Origin: a bacterium
Lineage (GTDB): Bacteria; CLD3; SB21
Direction of reading: 5' to 3'
Length of the DNA: 33,326 bases
NCBI GenBank assembly: GCA_019695335.1
Contig: JAIBAF010000040.1
Span: 1 to 33,326 of the forward strand
Shown: positions 351 through 9,427 of the stretch, piece after piece
Numbering within the stretch: position 1 is the first letter of the stretch
Layout: each line of letters starts with the position of its first letter
The notes under the pieces: generated by a model
Told to the model about the DNA's origin: nothing
The model's input: only the letters and a program-made list of their open reading frames with translations
The model's database searches: none
Program-made: the position numbers and the translations under genes

Positions 351-1205
351 TCAAACCGTCACGATTTCAAAATTCGATTTGCCGCCTTTTTTAATTTTGT
401 ACATGATCTCGTCCGATTTTTTTAATAGATCTTTGGAAGAAATATCGGCGTCTTTAATAAAAGCGCCGCCGAAACTGAGCGATAATTTTTCGGAAATGGT
501 TTTCAGTTCTTTTTGAGAGACGTCGAATAAATGCGATACGAGACGTACAGTTTCGTCATACGATTTATTAGTGATCAGCAAAACAAATTCATCGCCGCCG
601 ATCCTGGCAAAAACGTCTCGGCCGTTAAGATTGCCGGTAACCGTTGATGAAAAACGTATTAAAACCTGATTACCTACATCGTGTCCAAGATTGTCGTTAA
701 CATATTTGAAATTATCCATGTCCATGTAACATAAGCATAAAGATGAAGCGGACTTTTTTGCTTTGTTCAACTCGCGCTCCAATATTTCGGAAAAAAACCT
801 CCAGTTATAAACACCGGTCAGTTGATCACGATTAGAGATGCTCTTTTGCTGCTCGTAGTTGGCAATCATTTTTGATAACAGTAATGAATGCAAAGTGAAA
901 TATCCCAGACGCATCAGAGCATTCCAGATAGGAATAAATGTATTGCTGTATTCATGGCCTGATAAAAAATCCACAGAGAACCAAATTATTGCCGACACAA
1001 CCGAGATGACGATTCCAAGGTTAAAATTGCCAAAGATGATGGCGAGCGATATGGGTAAAAGGTAAAAAAGCGAAAAGGATATTTCATATCCTGTGAGGTA
1101 ATCGGCAATTCCGATGGAAGCTACTACAAGTACAGTCGCAACAACAACAATCGGCAGCTGCGGTTTTTGAAACATGAATACAATGGCATTTTCTCGTTCA
1201 GGCAT
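351..1205 (-). CDS. Membrane-anchored diguanylate cyclase (GGDEF domain)
   Basis: This 284-residue protein makes the second messenger c-di-GMP from two GTP. Residues about 15-112 are hydrophobic and form roughly four membrane segments with the conserved ISFSLFYLLPI stretch, an uncharacterised sensor region often found before GGDEF domains. The GGDEF domain starts near residue 124 (SNRDQLTGVYN). It shows the metal/GTP-binding MDMDNFKYVND and an intact GGDEF at 203-207, so it should be catalytically active. The position of the product-inhibition I-site RxxD reads NGRD (194-197); its Arg is missing, so classical c-di-GMP feedback is unlikely. The start is supported by AAGGA (1213-1217) seven bases upstream. 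There is no EAL domain and no obvious partner gene. Confidence 0.9.
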   Translation of the reverse strand: MPERENAIVFMFQKPQLPIVVVATVLVVASIGIADYLTGYEISFSLFYLLPISLAIIFGNFNLGIVISVVSAIIWFSVDFLSGHEYSNTFIPIWNALMRLGYFTLHSLLLSKMIANYEQQKSISNRDQLTGVYNWRFFSEILERELNKAKKSASSLCLCYMDMDNFKYVNDNLGHDVGNQVLIRFSSTVTGNLNGRDVFARIGGDEFVLLITNKSYDETVRLVSHLFDVSQKELKTISEKLSLSFGGAFIKDADISSKDLLKKSDEIMYKIKKGGKSNFEIVTV

Positions 1206-1318: not shown

Positions 1319-1780
1319 TTAGTCAATCGGCTGTTGAGGTGGCGTTGAATTTTCAAGGTATTTCTTGAGGTTTTGAACAACTGCCGGCCAAGCTTGTTTG
1401 ACGGCTTCGTAATACCAGTCCCAATCGGGTCCGCTTTGATATCCTGTTTGGCACAGTTGAAGCTGCGAATGCCCGTCCTGCATCACAACTTCAGCTGTCA
1501 GTGACATTGGACCTAGTAAATCACGCTCGGGATTCAAATATATTACGCGATCGATTTCTAGCAACCTATCCGGTATGCAGTTTTTGATAATACCTGTTGT
1601 GACATAGCCGAATCCTTTTTCTGAAATATTCCATGTCAACGTATATAGGCCTCCGTTCCGCTTCTCGATAAGCGCTCGTTCGACGCCCCACCAGGCCTTA
1701 AGCATTTTGTAATCCGTAAATGCGCTGATAATGGTTGACGGGGAAGTGTTGATTTCGATTGTAACGTCGACTGATTTCAC
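1319..1780 (-). CDS. SRPBCC (AHSA1-like, START-fold) domain protein
   Basis: This 153-residue single-domain protein opens with VDVTIEINTSPSTIISAFTD and a LKAWWG segment, the usual AHSA1/polyketide-cyclase-like N-terminus. It has further family features (GGLYTLTW in the middle, then a C-terminal amphipathic helix WPAVVQNLKKYLE). The fold forms a deep hydrophobic cavity that binds small ligands; no ligand can be named. The start codon is GTG and has no visible Shine-Dalgarno sequence, so the exact N-terminus is uncertain. It is the last gene of the ArsR/SRPBCC/deaminase operon, 38 bases after the preceding gene, which encodes another SRPBCC protein. Confidence 0.8.
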   Translation of the reverse strand: MKSVDVTIEINTSPSTIISAFTDYKMLKAWWGVERALIEKRNGGLYTLTWNISEKGFGYVTTGIIKNCIPDRLLEIDRVIYLNPERDLLGPMSLTAEVVMQDGHSQLQLCQTGYQSGPDWDWYYEAVKQAWPAVVQNLKKYLENSTPPQQPID

Positions 1781-1818
1781 GGTTGAAAAGGATTTAAAAA
1801 ATTGTAGATGAATGGGGA

Positions 1819-2268
1819 CTAAACGTTATCCCGCTCATGGTATGGAATACGAATACCTTTTTCCAAATAACCTTTGAGCACTCTTAAATATACAGCCCAG
1901 CAGTACGAAGAAATGCGGAAATGTTCGTTCACTTCTTTCCAATTGGAATGATAAAAACTAAGGCGTGTCGTGCCTCCTTTATCATTCAGAATAAATCCCA
2001 CTGCGGTATCGTTCCAATCGTTGTGCGAGTCAAAAATCAAGAGTTCAAATTCGCTATTGGGAACATGTTTAATAACTTTGCCATACCAAATACAATTCGG
2101 CGTAAAGCCCAGTTCAAAAACATTGTCTTTGCCGGCGGCATTTTTGCACGTTTGTGTCCACCATTCATCGAGCAATTTAGGGGTTGAAACGCCTCCAAAA
2201 ACTTTGTTGACAGGCGCTTTGATAATAAGGTCATGATAAATGGCATAATGCTTTTTTTGATCGGGCAT
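1819..2268 (-). CDS. SRPBCC (AHSA1-like) domain protein
   Basis: A 149-residue START-fold protein: HDLIIKAPVNKVFGGVSTP and LLDEWWT are the typical first strand and helix of the AHSA1/SRPBCC group, TRLSFYHSNW is the late strand, and the C-terminal helix includes LRVLKGYLEKG. I chose the ATG at 2268 rather than a longer open frame because a perfect GGAGG (2273-2277) lies four bases upstream. It follows the deaminase gene after 22 bases and precedes another SRPBCC gene, so it is translated from the same mRNA. The ligand is unknown. Sequence similarity to the neighbouring SRPBCC proteins is visible but low, suggesting old duplications with divergent specificity rather than recent copies. Confidence 0.82.
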   Translation of the reverse strand: MPDQKKHYAIYHDLIIKAPVNKVFGGVSTPKLLDEWWTQTCKNAAGKDNVFELGFTPNCIWYGKVIKHVPNSEFELLIFDSHNDWNDTAVGFILNDKGGTTRLSFYHSNWKEVNEHFRISSYCWAVYLRVLKGYLEKGIRIPYHERDNV

Positions 2269-2290
2269 AATTCCTCCTTTGTACAAAAGT

Positions 2291-2680
2291 CTATGTATTC
2301 ACATTCTGGAAATCATACGGCAATAACCGATCGAGCGTTACGACGTCAAATTCATTCATCAAAATTTTGGCATAAAGGTTTTTTCGATCAACCTGAAGCA
2401 TCATTTCTCTGCATCGCCCGCATGGCACCAGGATTGAGACCGTGCTTACTGCAACAATCATGTCAATTTCTGTTTCACGATGTTTGAGCATATCGGCGAT
2501 AGCTGCATGTTCAGCACAAAACCCGATACCGCATGCCAAGTCGATGCTGATTCCGGTATAAATGTTTCCTTTTTTTGTAATGATTGCGGCAGCAACGGAT
2601 CCGGCCTGAAAATTTTTTTCAGATAGCTCAAAAACGCCGGTAAATTTTTTTGCAACGGTTATTAATTCGGAAGTATTCAT
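2291..2680 (-). CDS. Cytidine deaminase-fold protein, blasticidin-S-deaminase-like
   Basis: This 129-residue protein belongs to the zinc-dependent cytidine deaminase superfamily. The first motif is CAEHAAI (Cys zinc ligand, Glu proton shuttle) and the second is PCGRCRE (two Cys ligands), giving the three-cysteine site of small tetrameric CDAs. The short length, the GNIYTGISIDL strand and the C-terminal RLLPYDF resemble blasticidin-S deaminases and their bacterial homologues more than housekeeping Cdd, but the substrate (free nucleoside or a nucleoside antibiotic) cannot be decided from sequence. It sits inside the ArsR/SRPBCC operon, 21 bases after the double-SRPBCC gene. The Shine-Dalgarno is weak, so it may be translationally coupled. 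Confidence 0.85.
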   Translation of the reverse strand: MNTSELITVAKKFTGVFELSEKNFQAGSVAAAIITKKGNIYTGISIDLACGIGFCAEHAAIADMLKHRETEIDMIVAVSTVSILVPCGRCREMMLQVDRKNLYAKILMNEFDVVTLDRLLPYDFQNVNT

Positions 2681-2701
2681 AACTGGTTCGGCTGTCCCTG
2701 A

Positions 2702-3556
2702 TCACATTGCCTGATCGCGATGTTCTGAGAACGCTTTGATAGCACCCATATAAGCGTACCAACCGCGAATGTATCCCGGAATATCCATATCTTTTATAAA
2801 ACCGCTGTGGTACAGCGTTAAAGTGGTTTTTCCTTTTTGTCCTTCAATCGTCCACTCGACGATTGATTGGTCGAAATCGCGATGAACCCAATCCGTTGTC
2901 AGCGATTTTCCCGGTTCAATCCGGATGATTTTGCGCGGCCCGTATTCGGCATCGAATTTCCAGCCGTAATTGTATTTGCCGTCTGTTTTAAGATCGACGG
3001 TTGCCCTGGTTGAAATCCATTCGTCCATTTTTTCGGGTACGGTTAAAGCTGACCAAACGTCCTCGGGCGGTGCGTCGATGGTGACGGACATCCGTACGGA
3101 ATTTCCGGGATCTTTGACGCTAAAATTCAGTAAAGATCGGCCGGTTTCGACGAAGTGTCTCAAATTGTACAAAAAAATCTGCACGCCATCCGAGGCGAGA
3201 TACCAATGCATGATATTGGAATTGTCAAGCAGTTCATGCGTAATAGTGACGATTGAACCTTGGCCGACCGTATCAATTTCAAAAATCAGGCGCGTCTGCA
3301 TGCCGATCCATGGCCACCGAATTTCTAGTCGTGACGGTTTTTGAACGGTAGACAAAATTTGATGGGCGTCTTTAGGGTCGACGCATCCATACAATGCTTC
3401 CCCCCAGAAACGAAATTTTCCACCCGGCTTGAGTTCAACTTCGGCACCGTCGCACAGCCACTGTTTCATTAATTCTGGTTTAGTTAACGCATCAAAGACG
3501 TCAGCAGGTTTACCCAAAATGTGAATGCCCAGACGAATTTTTTTCGTTTCTTCCAT
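2702..3556 (-). CDS. Tandem SRPBCC (AHSA1-like) double-domain protein
   Basis: This 284-residue protein contains two START-fold domains in a row. Domain 1 (about 1-140) begins IRLGIHILGKPADVFDALT, followed by MKQWL and GGKFRFWGE. Domain 2 (about 145-284) begins VRMSVTIDAPPEDVWSALT, followed by MDEWIS, DGKYNYGW and TLTLYHSGF. The ATG at 3556 was chosen because GGGAG lies about six bases upstream; an upstream in-frame extension has no such site. It starts 19 bases after the ArsR-type regulator gene. ArsR-type regulator plus AHSA1-like protein is a common bacterial pair, and here the partner is duplicated internally. Ligand and role are unknown. Confidence 0.85.
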   Translation of the reverse strand: MEETKKIRLGIHILGKPADVFDALTKPELMKQWLCDGAEVELKPGGKFRFWGEALYGCVDPKDAHQILSTVQKPSRLEIRWPWIGMQTRLIFEIDTVGQGSIVTITHELLDNSNIMHWYLASDGVQIFLYNLRHFVETGRSLLNFSVKDPGNSVRMSVTIDAPPEDVWSALTVPEKMDEWISTRATVDLKTDGKYNYGWKFDAEYGPRKIIRIEPGKSLTTDWVHRDFDQSIVEWTIEGQKGKTTLTLYHSGFIKDMDIPGYIRGWYAYMGAIKAFSEHRDQAM

Positions 3557-3575
3557 ATCATACTCCCAGTAAAAA

Positions 3576-4142
3576 TTATGGTTTCTGCACTTCCGGGTGT
3601 ACGGCACATATCAGGCGAAAGGGGATGCCGTTTTCGTGATGATATTTGCCGGCGAGATTACCAAGAAAAAAAGCTAATTCCTCAGCAAAACCTCGGCGGT
3701 CCTCTTCCGTGTGAAACGCTACCCGTGTTTCCAATGCGAGTGTGGGTACCGGCTGACTTTGGCTTAACGCAGCAACATCATCGATCAATTGACTGCCAAG
3801 GGCAATCAGATATTCGGATTTAGTTCGATCTATGGTTTTCGGGTCTGCTTTGATATAACTGAGCGCCGAAGGACTCACGACAAATGCCGGAGCTACCGAT
3901 CGGTAAATTCTCTCGACACAATTTCCCTTCCTTTTTTCTTCAACAAATTGAATCAATCCTGCTTTTTCAAGTTCACGTAAATGATAATTGGCTACTTGCC
4001 GCGGAATGCCGAGTTTGGGTGCAAGAGCAGAGGCAGAGCCGGGCTGGCTGAGTGAACGCAGGATTTGGAGCCGAAGCGGATGGAGTGCTTTTCCGGCTTT
4101 TTCAGAATTGTTTATAATTTTAATGGAATCAACATTTGACAT
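3576..4142 (-). CDS. ArsR-type winged-helix transcriptional regulator
   Basis: A 188-residue DNA-binding protein. Residues about 15-80 form the winged helix: ALHPLRLQILRSL, then the recognition region LGIPRQVANYHLRELEKAGLI and a basic wing EEKRKGN. The remaining ~100 residues form a helical C-terminal region often attached to HTH proteins paired with SRPBCC genes; no metal-binding Cys pair of the ArsR/SmtB kind is seen, so the signal is probably organic rather than metal. It is the first gene of a minus-strand operon of five. The ATG lies six bases after a TATATT -10 box and has no Shine-Dalgarno, which indicates leaderless translation. An inverted repeat within the promoter suggests self-repression (inference). 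Confidence 0.85.
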   Translation of the reverse strand: MSNVDSIKIINNSEKAGKALHPLRLQILRSLSQPGSASALAPKLGIPRQVANYHLRELEKAGLIQFVEEKRKGNCVERIYRSVAPAFVVSPSALSYIKADPKTIDRTKSEYLIALGSQLIDDVAALSQSQPVPTLALETRVAFHTEEDRRGFAEELAFFLGNLAGKYHHENGIPFRLICAVHPEVQKP

Positions 4143-4148
4143 ATTTTG

Positions 4149-4177
4149 AATATACTACCGACAAGATTATTTGTCAA
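4149..4177 (-). promoter_or_regulatory. Strong sigma70-type promoter of the ArsR/SRPBCC operon
   Basis: On the minus strand TTGACA (4177-4172) is followed after exactly 17 bases by TATATT (4154-4149). The expected start point, about seven bases past the -10 box, coincides with the A of the regulator's ATG at 4142, predicting a leaderless transcript. Confidence 0.75.
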
Positions 4178-4196
4178 GATAAATAACATTGTCGGT
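4157..4196. promoter_or_regulatory. Probable operator repeats overlapping the ArsR-family promoter
   Basis: GACAA (4160-4164) and TTGTC (4171-4175) form an inverted repeat with a six-base spacer lying between the -35 and -10 boxes. A wider pair, ACCGACAA (4157-4164) and TTGTCGGT (4189-4196), is an exact eight-base inverted repeat using one of the same half-sites. Such placement fits steric repression by the winged-helix regulator encoded immediately downstream; the binding itself is inferred. Confidence 0.55.
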
Positions 4197-4278
4197 AATT
4201 TATAGTACATAAATCTTAAATTGAATTTTAAATCGAATTACGTTAGTAATGATATATTTTTATTTAATTTAAAAATAA

Positions 4279-4404: not shown

Positions 4405-5535
4405 ATGGAAATTGGTTCACGGCTTATTCTAGAATGGAAAGATCTTCAGAAGCTTTTTGATGCTATTATTGATCAAAAATATACCCTTGTTGGGCCCACC
4501 GTTAAAAATCAAGCCATTCTCTACGACACGATCCGCTCAATCGATGAACTTCCCCAAGGCTTGACGGACGAACAGGTCGGCGGCCAATACCGGCTCAAAG
4601 AAACGTCAGCACCGGAAGCTTTCGGTTATACTCTGAGCGCGCAATCGTGGAAGCGCTTTTTATTTCCGCCGGAAGCCCGTTTATGGAAAGCGACGCGCAA
4701 GAACGGGAAATTTGAAATTGAACCGGATTCGCCGGCATCACCACGCTATGCTTTTTTTGGCGTTCGGCCGTGCGAACTCAAGGCGATACATATCCAGGAT
4801 AAAGTTTTTATCAATAAACCTTATGCCGATCCCAATTATTCGCTTCGGCGCGATCAATTGCTCATGATTGTCATGCAATGTACTCAGGCCGGGAGCAATT
4901 GTTTTTGTACTTCGATGAATACGGGTCCGCGCGCGCGCAATGGGTTTGATCTGGCGATGACGGAGGTAGCGGATACGGACCGGCATTATTTTGTAGTCGA
5001 AATAGGGACGGATCGCGGAGCGGCGCTGATGCAATCGGTACCGCTCACGCAAGCCACCGAGAAGGAACTTCAACAAGCGACGCAATGGGAGAGCCGGGCA
5101 ACGGCAATGATGACGAAAACCTTGGACACGGCCCATATTCAGGAACTCCTCGACCGCCAATTTGAAAGTCCCCGATGGGACGAGACCGCTTCGCGATGCC
5201 TGTCCTGTGCCAATTGCACTATGGTCTGTCCGACCTGTTTTTGTTCCGACGTCGAAGACACGACCGATCTGACCGGAACGACGGCGGAAAGACGCCGCCG
5301 GTGGGATTCGTGTTTTACCGCTACGCATTCGCATTTACACGGCGGCAGTGTCCGGACGTCGGCGAAATCGCGGTACCGCCAGTGGCTGACGCACAAACTT
5401 TCCTATTGGATCGATCAATTCGGCGAATCGGGCTGTGTCGGCTGCGGGCGTTGTATCACGTGGTGTCCCGTTGGGATCGATCTGACGGAAGAAGTACGCG
5501 CATTTCGTGAACGCGATACATCCAAAACTTCTTAG
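4405..5535 (+). CDS. hydB: Group 3b [NiFe] hydrogenase (sulfhydrogenase) beta subunit, 4Fe-4S protein
   Basis: A 376-residue cytosolic electron-transfer subunit that relays electrons between the [NiFe] heterodimer and the flavin subunit. The N-terminal region carries the family's [11 protein letters not shown] (118-128) and a [11 protein letters not shown] stretch (158-168). Two 4Fe-4S sites lie near the C-terminus: C265, C268, C271, C275 in [14 protein letters not shown], and C344, C347, C350, C354 in [16 protein letters not shown]. Length and layout fit HydB/HyhB of NAD(P)-linked group 3b enzymes. It is the first gene of a six-gene operon. The Shine-Dalgarno GAGGGG (4394-4399) is five bases from the ATG and can pair with CCCC at 4370-4373, which might dampen initiation. 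Confidence 0.9.
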
Positions 5536-5544
5536 GAGCTAACG

Positions 5545-6000
5545 ATGGAAGATCTGAAGGCCTATTTGATCGAACACCCTTTTTTGCAGGGGTTCAGCCA
5601 GCATCACCTGGAACTGATTGTAGGATGCGCCAAAAACGTGCGGTTTGATACAGGCGAATTTATTTTCAAAGAAGGCCAGGAGGCCAATGAATTTTACCTT
5701 ATCCGGCACGGCAAAGTGGCGCTGGAAATGTATGCCGCCGAAAAAGGACACATTACCATTCAAACCATCAGCGAAGGCGATGTGCTCGGCTGGTCGTGGC
5801 TGATTCCGCCGTACAATTGGCAATTCGACGCGCGTGCCGTGGAAATCACCCGCGCCATCGCGCTCGACGGGAAATGTCTCCGCGATAAATGCGAACACGA
5901 TCACGACCTCGGTTTCGAATTGCTCAAACGCTTTTCGAATATCGTGAGCCAGCGGCTGGAATCGACGCGCCTACAACTCCTGGATGTGTACGGAAATTAA
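5545..6000 (+). CDS. Stand-alone cyclic-nucleotide-binding-fold protein of the hydrogenase operon
   Basis: This 151-residue protein consists only of a CRP/FNR-like effector domain; there is no helix-turn-helix. The beta-roll is clear (VRFDTGEFIFKEGQEANEFYLIRHGKVAL), followed by GDVLGWSWLIPPYNW at the place of the phosphate-binding cassette. Compared with E. coli CRP, the cAMP-contacting Glu is replaced by Trp and the usual Arg position is not conserved, so classical cNMP binding is doubtful. The GWSWL...DARA pattern and the LQLLDVYGN ending recur in a conserved subfamily that I know from memory. It lies between the beta and gamma subunit genes, nine bases after hydB with a GGAG site, so it is probably an accessory or regulatory partner of the enzyme. 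Confidence 0.85.
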   Translation: MEDLKAYLIEHPFLQGFSQHHLELIVGCAKNVRFDTGEFIFKEGQEANEFYLIRHGKVALEMYAAEKGHITIQTISEGDVLGWSWLIPPYNWQFDARAVEITRAIALDGKCLRDKCEHDHDLGFELLKRFSNIVSQRLESTRLQLLDVYGN

Positions 6001-6013
6001 ATGAAGGACGATT

Positions 6014-6850
6014 ATGATTGCCGAAGCGATGCAACCGATGGCTTCAAGGCCATTTCGTATAGACCGGTTCTGGAAAGAAACCTATGATACTTTTTCGATG
6101 GAATTGATGCCGCTTGACGGTCATACTTTTTCATTCGAGCCCGGACAATTCAATATGCTGTACGTCTGGGGCGCCGGCGAAGTGCCGATTTCCATCAGCG
6201 GTAATCCCACCAAGAATCATATTCTTACACACACAGTTCGTGCCGTCGGATCAGTGACGAAATTCATGGCCAACCTGAAAAAAAACGACATCGTCGGTGT
6301 ACGGGGTCCTTACGGCGTACCGTGGCCGGTGGCGGAAGCGCACGGGCATGATATCGTGATCATTTGCGGAGGAATCGGTTTAGCGCCGCTGCGTCCTGCG
6401 TTGTACTACATTCTCCATCATCGTGAAAAATTCGGTAAAATTCTTATGCTTTATGGCGCACGTACACCGGACGATATGTTGTATGTGAAGGAACTTGAAC
6501 AATGGCGTGGGCGCTTTGATATGCATGTGAGCGTGACGGTCGATCGTGCCGATGCATCGTGGCGCGGTAATGTTGGCGTGGTGACCAGTTTAATGCCGCG
6601 ATTCCATTTTGACCGGGAAATGACGATTGCGCTCGTGTGCGGGCCGGAAATAATGATGCGTTATACGCTATTGGAATTGTCCAAACGCGGCATTATGGAA
6701 GAAAATTTATACTTGTCGATGGAACGAAATATGAAATGCGGCATCGGTGTGTGCGGGCATTGCCAGTTCCGCCACTTTTTTATTTGCAAAGACGGGCCGG
6801 TCTTTCGCTACGACCGGATCAAACACCTGATGCTGAGAAGGGAATTATAG
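6014..6850 (+). CDS. hydG: Group 3b [NiFe] hydrogenase gamma subunit, FAD/NAD(P)-binding with 2Fe-2S
   Basis: A 278-residue flavoprotein of the ferredoxin-NADP reductase/PyrK type, the site where NAD(P) exchanges electrons. Residues 10-105 are the FAD-binding barrel (PGQFNMLYV, then VPISISG in place of the RxYS motif). NAD(P)-binding follows with [15 protein letters not shown] (116-130), [11 protein letters not shown] and a CGPEIMM motif. The C-terminal 2Fe-2S loop has C242, C247, C250 and C258 ([11 protein letters not shown]). The start has AAGGA five bases upstream. It stands 13 bases after the cNMP-fold gene and is followed one base later by the small-subunit gene, so co-translation is likely. 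Confidence 0.92.
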
Positions 6851-6851
6851 T

Positions 6852-7628
6852 ATGGCAACGCATCGTAAACCGAAACTGGCCGTATGGAAATTTGCTTCCT
6901 GCGATGGCTGTCAGTTGACATTGTTGGATTGTGAAGATGAATTGCTCGCCGTGGCCGGCGCAATTGATATTGCCAATTTTCCGGAAGCTTCGCGCGCCGT
7001 GATCAAAGGCCCTTACGACGTATCGCTGGTCGAAGGCTCGATCACGACCGCGCACGATGCGGAAAGAATTCACCAGATCCGCCGCGATTCGAAGATTCTT
7101 GTCACGATCGGCGCATGCGCGACAGGCGGCGGCATTCAGGCGCTGCGCAATTTTACCGATGTCAAATCGTACATTCCGGTCGTCTACGCCAAGCCCGATT
7201 ACATCAAAACATTGAATAAATCCACGCCGATTGCGGATCACGTGGCCGTTGATTTTGAACTGCGCGGCTGTCCGATCAGTAAAAAACAATTGATTGAAGC
7301 GATCGTGGCACTGCTGGCCGGACGCAAACCGCAATTACCGCATTACAGCGTTTGTATGGAATGTAAACGCCGTGACACGACGTGCCTGGCCGTTGCGGAA
7401 GGTGTGCCGTGTTTGGGTCCGGTGACGCAAGCGGGCTGCGGCGCGATTTGTCCGTCCTATCATCGGGGATGTTTCGGATGTTTCGGCCCTAAAGAATTGT
7501 CTAACACCGAAAGCCTGAGCCATTGGTGGCAATCAAACGGAATGGACAACCGCGAGATCGTCCGCCGCTTCCGCAGTTTCAATGCCTACGCCGATGCGTT
7601 TCGAAAGGAGAGCGAAGCTCATGAGTGA
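6852..7628 (+). CDS. hydD: Group 3b [NiFe] hydrogenase small (delta) subunit
   Basis: A 258-residue Fe-S subunit that carries electrons away from the [NiFe] site. It lacks a Tat signal, so the enzyme is cytoplasmic. The proximal cluster ligands are present: C17 and C20 in SCDGCQ, a Cys in [10 protein letters not shown], and a Cys in ELRGCPIS. The C-terminal part carries two further cluster-binding groups ([13 protein letters not shown] and the C-rich [22 protein letters not shown]), as in the cytosolic group 3 enzymes. The start has AAGGG nine bases upstream. Its last eight bases overlap the start of the large-subunit gene, a typical coupling of the two catalytic subunits. Confidence 0.93.
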
Positions 7629-8943
7629 AACGAAAACAGCCAGTATAGCTTCAAAAGATAAAATTATTAAAGTCGATTACCTTGCTCGCGTCGAAGGCGA
7701 AGGTTCGCTCTACGTCAAAGTGAAAGGCGGTAAGGTCAAAAACGTACAATTTAAAATATTCGAACCACCGCGTTTTTTTGAAGCCTTTCTGCGCGGACGT
7801 TTATATAAAGAAGCGCCGGATATTACGGCGCGCATTTGCGGAATTTGCCCGATCGCATACCAGATGAGTTCGTCTCAGGCGATGGAAAATGCTTTTGGCG
7901 TAAAAGTGAGTCCGGGTATCCGTGACTTGCGCCGGCTGATTTACTGCGGCGAATGGATCGAAAGCCATGTATTGCACGTGTATATGCTGCACGGACCGGA
8001 TTTCTTGGGATATGAAAGCGCGATTCATATGGCGAAAGATCATGGCGATTTGGTTCAAAAAGCGTTACGCATGAAAAAACTTGGTAATGAAATTATGGAA
8101 GTGGTCGGCGGGCGTGCCATACACCCGATCAATGTCGGCGTGGGTGGTTTTTATCGGGCCCCGTCGAAATCGGAATTGCAGGCATTGGTCGACGAATTGC
8201 AGTGGTGCCGTGAAGCAGCGATTGAAACGGTCCGTCTCGTTGCGGGATTTAATTTCCCGGAATTCGATATGGATTATGAATACGTAGCGTTATCGCATCC
8301 CGACGAATATGCCATTACGGAAGGAAGACTGATCTCGAATCGCGGATTGAATATTGACGTGAGCGAGTATGAACAATTTTTTGAGGAATCTCACGAAACC
8401 CACAGCCATGCCTTGCATTCAGCGATCAAAGGCCGCGGCGCCTACTTTGTCGGACCATTGGCGCGTTTTAATTTAAATTTCAATCAACTTCATGACGAAG
8501 AAAAAAAACTAGCCGAAGAAGTAAAATGTGTACCACCGATCAATAATCCTTTCAAAGGCATCGTCGTTCGAAGTCTTGAAACGCTTTATGCTGTCAATGA
8601 ATCGCTGCGGCTGATCGAGTCGTACGAACCGCCGGAACCGTCGATGATCGCAATCACGCCAAAAGCCGGGCGAGGACAAGGATGCACGGAAGCGCCGCGC
8701 GGAATATGTTGGCACCGATACACGCTCGATGACAAAGGATTGATTCAAGACGCCAAAATTGTTCCGCCGACGTCGCAGAATCAAAAACAAATTGAAAAAG
8801 ATCTGCATCAGTATGTCAGCCAATATATACATCTGCCGAAAGATCAATTGACATGGCAGTGCGAACAAGCGGTGCGCAATTACGACCCATGCATTTCCTG
8901 TGCGACGCATTTTCTCAAACTGGAGATTGATCGTGAAGAATGA
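7621..8943 (+). CDS. hydA: Group 3b [NiFe] hydrogenase large (alpha) catalytic subunit precursor
   Basis: A 440-residue subunit that holds the Ni-Fe(CN)2CO centre. The four Ni-binding cysteines are all visible: C73 and C76 in RICGICP and C424 and C427 in DPCISCATH. After H430 a ten-residue tail ([10 protein letters not shown]) remains, the peptide that the maturation protease removes after nickel insertion. I chose the ATG at 7621 because AAGGAG (7605-7610) lies ten bases upstream; it overlaps hydD by eight bases. The protease gene overlaps the last 11 bases. Family knowledge assigns reversible H2 oxidation with NAD(P) (and S0 reduction in some archaeal forms); direction in this organism is unknown. 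Confidence 0.94.
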
Positions 8944-9427
8944 TGAGAAAATTCCGATTCTGGTGATAGGTATCGGCAATGAATTTCGAAGAGATGACAG
9001 CGTCGGATTAGTTATTGCGCGGAAAATTGCCGCCAAAAATATTCATGACGTTGCTGTGATCGAACACAGCGGTGAGGGGACGTCGTTGATGGAGGCGTGG
9101 AAACGGGCTGATGCCGTAATTTTGGTCGATGCCGTAGCTTCCGATGGAGAAGCCGGTACGCTACATCATTTTGAAGCACAGGGAGAGAACATCCCGACGA
9201 ATTTTTTTAATTATTCAACACATGCCTTCAGCGTTGCGGAAGCAGTGGAATTATCCCGCGCACTCGGCACACTTCCCGAAATTATACATGTCTATGGGAT
9301 CGAAGGCGAAGATTTTTCTTCCGGAACAGAATTATGCAATCCGGTCAAGGATAGATTGGATAAACTTATTGAAATGATTTTACAGGATATCACCGTTCTA
9401 ATGATACGCAATCATATCAGAGCGTAA
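8933..9427 (+). CDS. [NiFe] hydrogenase maturation protease (HyaD/HycI family)
   Basis: A 164-residue endopeptidase that cleaves the C-terminal tail of the large subunit once nickel is bound. The family fingerprint [13 protein letters not shown] is at 13-25, and the three nickel-sensing residues are present: E17 in GNE, D66 in LVDAV and H97 in STHAFS. I chose the GTG at 8933, with GGAG (8922-8925) seven bases upstream, over a longer frame that would run far into hydA; it overlaps hydA by 11 bases. It is the last gene of the operon. The general hypA-F factors needed for Ni-Fe assembly are not in the window. No terminator is seen after it. Confidence 0.9.

Follow-up and report, generated by a model that had tools for sequence, protein, structure and literature searches.

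On the minus strand of a 33,326-nucleotide stretch of bacterial DNA (contig C40; hereafter the window), five tightly spaced genes encode an ArsR-type regulator, three SRPBCC proteins and a deaminase. We propose that these genes form a single autoregulated ArsR-SRPBCC small-molecule-resistance unit, to which one species has added a deaminase and two further SRPBCC genes, and we hold the chances of this reading to be even. The core of the operon is of the known ArsR-AHSA1 kind, and the deaminase and the two extra SRPBCC genes are its new part. ArsR-AHSA1 pairs are common and their ligands largely unknown; a gained enzyme with a predictable reaction, deamination, provides a handle on the ligand.

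Organisation of the operon and its promoter

The ORF list and Pfam searches confirmed five tightly packed ORFs between positions 4142 and 1319, and all of the families named in a preliminary description of this DNA were present. In the order of transcription on the minus strand, these are an ArsR-type winged-helix (HTH_20) repressor of 188 aa (3576–4142; PF12840, 2.3e-12, also HTH_5), a tandem SRPBCC protein of 284 aa with two AHSA1 domains (2702–3556; PF08327, 1e-32, in two stretches), a CDA-fold deaminase of 129 aa (2291–2680; PF00383, dCMP_cyt_deam_1, 8.9e-9) and two single SRPBCC (AHSA1) proteins. The first of the latter has 149 aa (1819–2268; PF08327, 2e-8, 34.9 bits against a cut-off of 22.1), the second has 153 aa and a GTG start (1319–1780; PF08327, 2.9e-11). 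Two start codons were corrected. For the tandem protein, the most likely start is the ATG at 3556, which has GGGAG upstream (the GTG at 3607 overlaps the regulator); for the 149-aa protein, it is the ATG at 2268, behind AAGGAGG, rather than the TTG at 2286. The resulting intergenic gaps measure 19, 21, 22 and 38 bp, and no terminator-like site was found in any of them. The gaps of about 20 bp on either side of the deaminase gene suggest that it is co-expressed with its neighbours.

The only strong sigma-70-type promoter on the operon strand lies at 4177–4149 (TTGACA-17-TATATT, 11 of 12 consensus matches) and is conserved in the sister species G001. In both genomes, the -10 box ends 6 nt ahead of the arsR ATG, a spacing from which we infer that the regulator message is probably leaderless. 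A perfect inverted repeat at 4156–4197, TACCGACA-26 bp-TGTCGGTA, forms a candidate operator. Its inner repeat GACAA-6-TTGTC (4160–4175) overlies the spacer between the -35 and -10 boxes. The sister carries the identical repeat, with 0 mismatches and identical spacing, before its own regulator, and there the inner repeat forms a complete palindrome, GACAAATTAATTTGTC. When both genomes were searched, each contained one exact copy of the operator; sites with 2 mismatches were few, about as frequent as with the reversed pattern used as a control. In the window, 0.06 matches would be expected at ≤3 mismatches. As each genome holds a sole exact copy, the regulator is most likely a local self-repressor that acts at this candidate operator.

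The regulator contains cysteines only at residues 75 and 179, with no metal-binding Cys pair in the HTH/recognition region, and scores 29.1 bits against the NF033788 metalloregulator model, below the cut-off of 55. Both observations favour an organic signal over a metal. The preliminary description had placed an ArsR-type regulator at the head of one operon. This assignment gains in precision, with a regulator of the non-metal ArsR type, tight gaps and a single strong promoter, and co-transcription of the five genes appears likely from their arrangement. An identity as the SdpR autorepressor was rejected (14.8 bits against an NCBIfam cut-off of 100). PADLOC gave only weak HTH matches of the regulator to Csa3 and CasR and no match for the other operon proteins. 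The AlphaFold model of the regulator alone is poor (pLDDT 58) and was set aside.

The ArsR-SRPBCC core

At the head of the operon, the gene for an ArsR-type HTH protein without the ArsR/SmtB metal motifs has an AHSA1 gene as its immediate same-strand neighbour 19 bp downstream; the Pfam matches of both (HTH_20/HTH_5 and AHSA1) exceed the cut-offs. This arrangement corresponds to the ArsR-COG3832 pairs, a common and stable two-gene combination without metal motifs, for which antibiotic resistance was considered the most plausible role (Makarova et al. 2009, PMC2701414). Unlike in the two-gene pair, one regulator here precedes a deaminase gene and three SRPBCC genes with four domains in all. The lineage-specific expansions of ArsR-COG3832 genes may be compared with the 14 AHSA1 domains found in the whole 3.76 Mb genome and with a second ArsR-AHSA1 island in the same genome. 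The latter (contig C64, 1639–7147; L131) comprises five AHSA1 genes and genes for ArsR, DUF1801, DoxX, DNA-alkylation-repair-like and PhnB-like proteins, and part of it is retained on the sister contig C341 (L136).

Outside the phylum, nine homologues of the regulator with 33–41% identity were found among 386 genomes. In five of these (L156, L157, L158, L159 and L161), the next gene downstream on the same strand is of the AHSA1/SRPBCC type, counting L157, where the Pfam score falls short of the cut-off (16.6 versus 22.1 bits), and L156, whose SRPBCC gene was recognised by eye beside the regulator without a profile hit. In view of the 14 AHSA1 domains in this 3.76 Mb genome, adjacency of this kind far exceeds chance. 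A sixth homologue, from another phylum (G024:C52, 2031–7580; L155), heads a multi-gene operon in the order ArsR, three tandem glyoxalase/bleomycin-resistance proteins, tandem SRPBCC, SRPBCC and second ArsR. Judged by its gene families, it is a further operon of this kind with an added drug-binding fold, in which the same type of regulator independently heads several predicted small-molecule-binding domains.

A characterised counterpart is found in the Mycobacterium tuberculosis operon Rv2034-Rv2035-Rv2036, which likewise combines an ArsR protein and a promoter inverted repeat with a following SRPBCC gene. Rv2034, in a probable operon with the SRPBCC gene, represses its own promoter via the inverted repeat (PMC3338718). 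Whereas autorepression has been shown for Rv2034, the regulator described here is a putative autorepressor. The mycobacterial operon differs in having no deaminase and in its operator, CCGTAAGT-4-ACTTACGG, which is distinct from our candidate operator.

ArsR-COG3832 pairs also appear among proposed type II systems (PMC2701414), which raises the question whether the operon is a toxin-antitoxin-like module with SRPBCC proteins as toxins and ArsR as the antitoxin. The tandem protein indeed matches the Rv0910 toxin model, weakly and below threshold (23.5 versus 100 bits). However, a cloned COG3832-ArsR pair was non-toxic in E. coli and in its own host (PMC7650669), the 2009 authors themselves preferred antibiotic resistance (PMC2701414), and four domains plus an enzyme fit poorly with a two-gene addiction unit. 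We therefore regard a toxin-antitoxin function as very improbable.

A genome-wide search placed four AHSA1 domains on the contig (3149–3508, 2729–3076, 1861–2220 and 1352–1750), with scores of 65.7, 51.9, 43.9 and 35.2 bits against the Pfam cut-off of 22.1, so that the count of four SRPBCC domains given in the preliminary description holds. The relatives of the tandem protein in the PDB are CalU16, YndB and DynU16, with partial similarity (E 4e-7 to 3e-6), and the entries matched include 6v04. CalC and CalU16 act on calicheamicin by sequestration or breakdown. Together with DynU16, they belong to enediyne clusters and share the fold of the operon's SRPBCC proteins; DynU16 (284 aa) also resembles the tandem protein in domain layout and length. 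Unlike for these proteins, no enediyne or other biosynthetic cluster was seen around the operon.

These similarities could also be read in terms of a biosynthetic or lipid-metabolic role, in which the SRPBCC proteins would cyclise or carry an aromatic or acyl compound made by the cell itself. Polyketide cyclase/aromatases and DynU16 are among the SRPBCC proteins with two domains (PMC8488855), and the tandem protein matches 6v04; but polyketide synthase, ligase or transporter genes were not seen near the operon in the ORF lists of the window, and we consider such a role improbable. SRPBCC sequence by itself cannot tell binding from catalysis.

The deaminase and its family

The third gene product carries the zinc ligands C-A-E and P-C-x-x-C and thus belongs to the CDA-fold superfamily. 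Its zinc motifs are intact (FCAEH at residues 54–58, PCGRC at 86–90) and show little or no variation across 50 members of a family with the signature C-G-I-G-F-C-A-E-H and P-C-G-R-C-R-E. The 49 aligned family members, from many phyla, are 44–64% identical to the operon deaminase. At close range, the family occurs in 7 of 386 sampled genomes, including this one; in all, its members were traced in at least 80 genomes from many phyla (loci L041–L120). Searches of phages and plasmids with the deaminase gave only distant or Cdd-like matches.

In fold and zinc motif, the enzyme resembles the tetrameric cytidine deaminase Cdd and blasticidin-S deaminase (BSD), the latter of which also has the PCGRC motif. 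The AlphaFold2 model (pLDDT 92.6), computed from a deaminase alignment of 50 rows that includes L134, finds its closest folds in Cdd and BSD about equally, with best-match TM-scores of about 0.67–0.79. In contrast to both, the operon deaminase belongs to a separate family with GIGFCAEH, and the N-x-E ribose motif of Cdd is replaced by S-x-D; the family mostly has C/N/S-x-D/E at this position. The members of this unnamed family score as cytidine deaminases and match the same models, yet most are without the Cdd ribose motif. The operon's own enzyme also falls below the curated cut-offs (55.3 versus 113.65 bits for TIGR01354; 58.8 versus 74 bits for NF004064). A canonical Cdd with the motif N-I-E-N is encoded elsewhere in the genome (contig C9). 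The separate Cdd, the signature and the scores below cut-off rule out that the operon deaminase is the housekeeping Cdd, in agreement with what the preliminary description had assumed.

In a tree, a branch with support of 98/98 parts the 50 family members from Cdd and one BSD. This single BSD included (3oj6) falls on the Cdd side, on a long branch, so that the deaminase does not group with BSD. The alignment has few columns and the midpoint root lies on a spurious row (cdd_L033), and only the branch between the family and Cdd/BSD was used; the separation is a rough result owing to the short alignment.

The gene neighbourhoods of the family tell a different story from the core. The preliminary description had seen the five families as a module, but in none of about 86 other family loci (80 and six further) does an SRPBCC or ArsR gene adjoin the deaminase gene, and the family occurs in many phyla without such neighbours. 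The operon's own locus served as the positive control for this search; strongly diverged SRPBCC proteins may have escaped the profile, which derives from this genus, and in some loci, on short contigs, only part of the neighbourhood is visible. At locus L079, an SRPBCC-like gene lies about 5 kb from the deaminase gene, not adjacent to it. Clustering of the neighbours of 80 loci revealed no shared partner; apart from scattered hits, it picked up synteny at the lineage level in Sulfurovum. About 5 of the 45 neighbours tested were GNAT acetyltransferases beside the deaminase gene, too few to be kept as a partner. On present data, the combination is therefore peculiar to one species.

The same picture emerges within the phylum, for which nine genomes were sampled. 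The regulator is found only in this genome and in the sister, where it is 87% identical, and the tandem SRPBCC, the deaminase and both single SRPBCC genes have no orthologue in the other eight genomes. A missing conserved neighbourhood in relatives had been named beforehand as an outcome that would speak against a joint module, and the sister indeed has the regulator and operator and none of the four genes. Downstream of its regulator follow about 320 bp without operon-like coding sequence and then the contig end; the DNA alignment between the two genomes beyond arsR is forced and not homologous. Given that the sister assembly is 91% complete and in 410 contigs, there is a slight chance that copies of the four genes lie elsewhere in that genome, though not adjacent to the regulator. 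The genes may have been gained here or lost in the sister, and since the sister keeps regulator and operator without them, the regulator may have another role there.

These distributions bear on the strongest competing explanation, an accidental assembly of an ArsR-SRPBCC resistance pair and unrelated cargo. Here the deaminase and the two single SRPBCC genes would have come under one promoter by insertion, without a shared substrate, and the deaminase would serve ordinary nucleoside salvage. The combination recurs nowhere in the loci examined, the deaminase family has a patchy distribution (7 of 386 genomes) with varied neighbours elsewhere, and the sister species lacks all four genes. On the other hand, the genome already has a canonical Cdd, the deaminase departs from the Cdd ribose motif and scores under the curated Cdd cut-offs, and the gaps of about 20 bp flanking its gene suggest co-expression. 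We consider an accidental assembly a serious possibility, though one to which we would give rather less than an even chance.

Proposed mechanism and genomic surroundings

In the extended resistance unit that we favour, the ArsR-like protein would sit on the inverted repeat that overlies its promoter and shut the operon, until an organic ligand rather than a metal releases the repressor. The SRPBCC proteins would then bind this ligand, a hydrophobic or aromatic compound, and sequester it or break it down, as CalC/CalU16 do with calicheamicin. The added zinc deaminase, from a separate family related to Cdd and BSD, would remove an amino group from the same or a related compound. A nucleoside-type compound is a candidate solely on the basis of the CDA fold. 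Such a joint function in sensing, binding and inactivation, as put forward in the preliminary description, is a reasonable hypothesis whose comparative support comes from one genome, as no other locus examined joins the deaminase to SRPBCC or ArsR genes. A more far-reaching version, in which the family comprises new, scattered drug- or metabolite-deaminating enzymes and one operon senses, binds and inactivates a single amino-pyrimidine-like compound, seems to us unlikely.

Downstream of the operon, after 113 bp on the same strand, lies a gene for a GGDEF protein (351–1205, minus strand; PF00990, 2.5e-35), which has no orthologue in the sister, the one further genome in which it was sought. The stretch between the operon and this gene showed no terminator-like site, so that read-through into it is possible. 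On the other side, a divergent plus-strand block (4405–9427) encodes an Fe-S protein, a CRP-like protein, an FAD/NAD protein, the small and large subunits of a NiFe-hydrogenase and a maturation protease, and by its gene content looks like a group 3 NiFe-hydrogenase operon.
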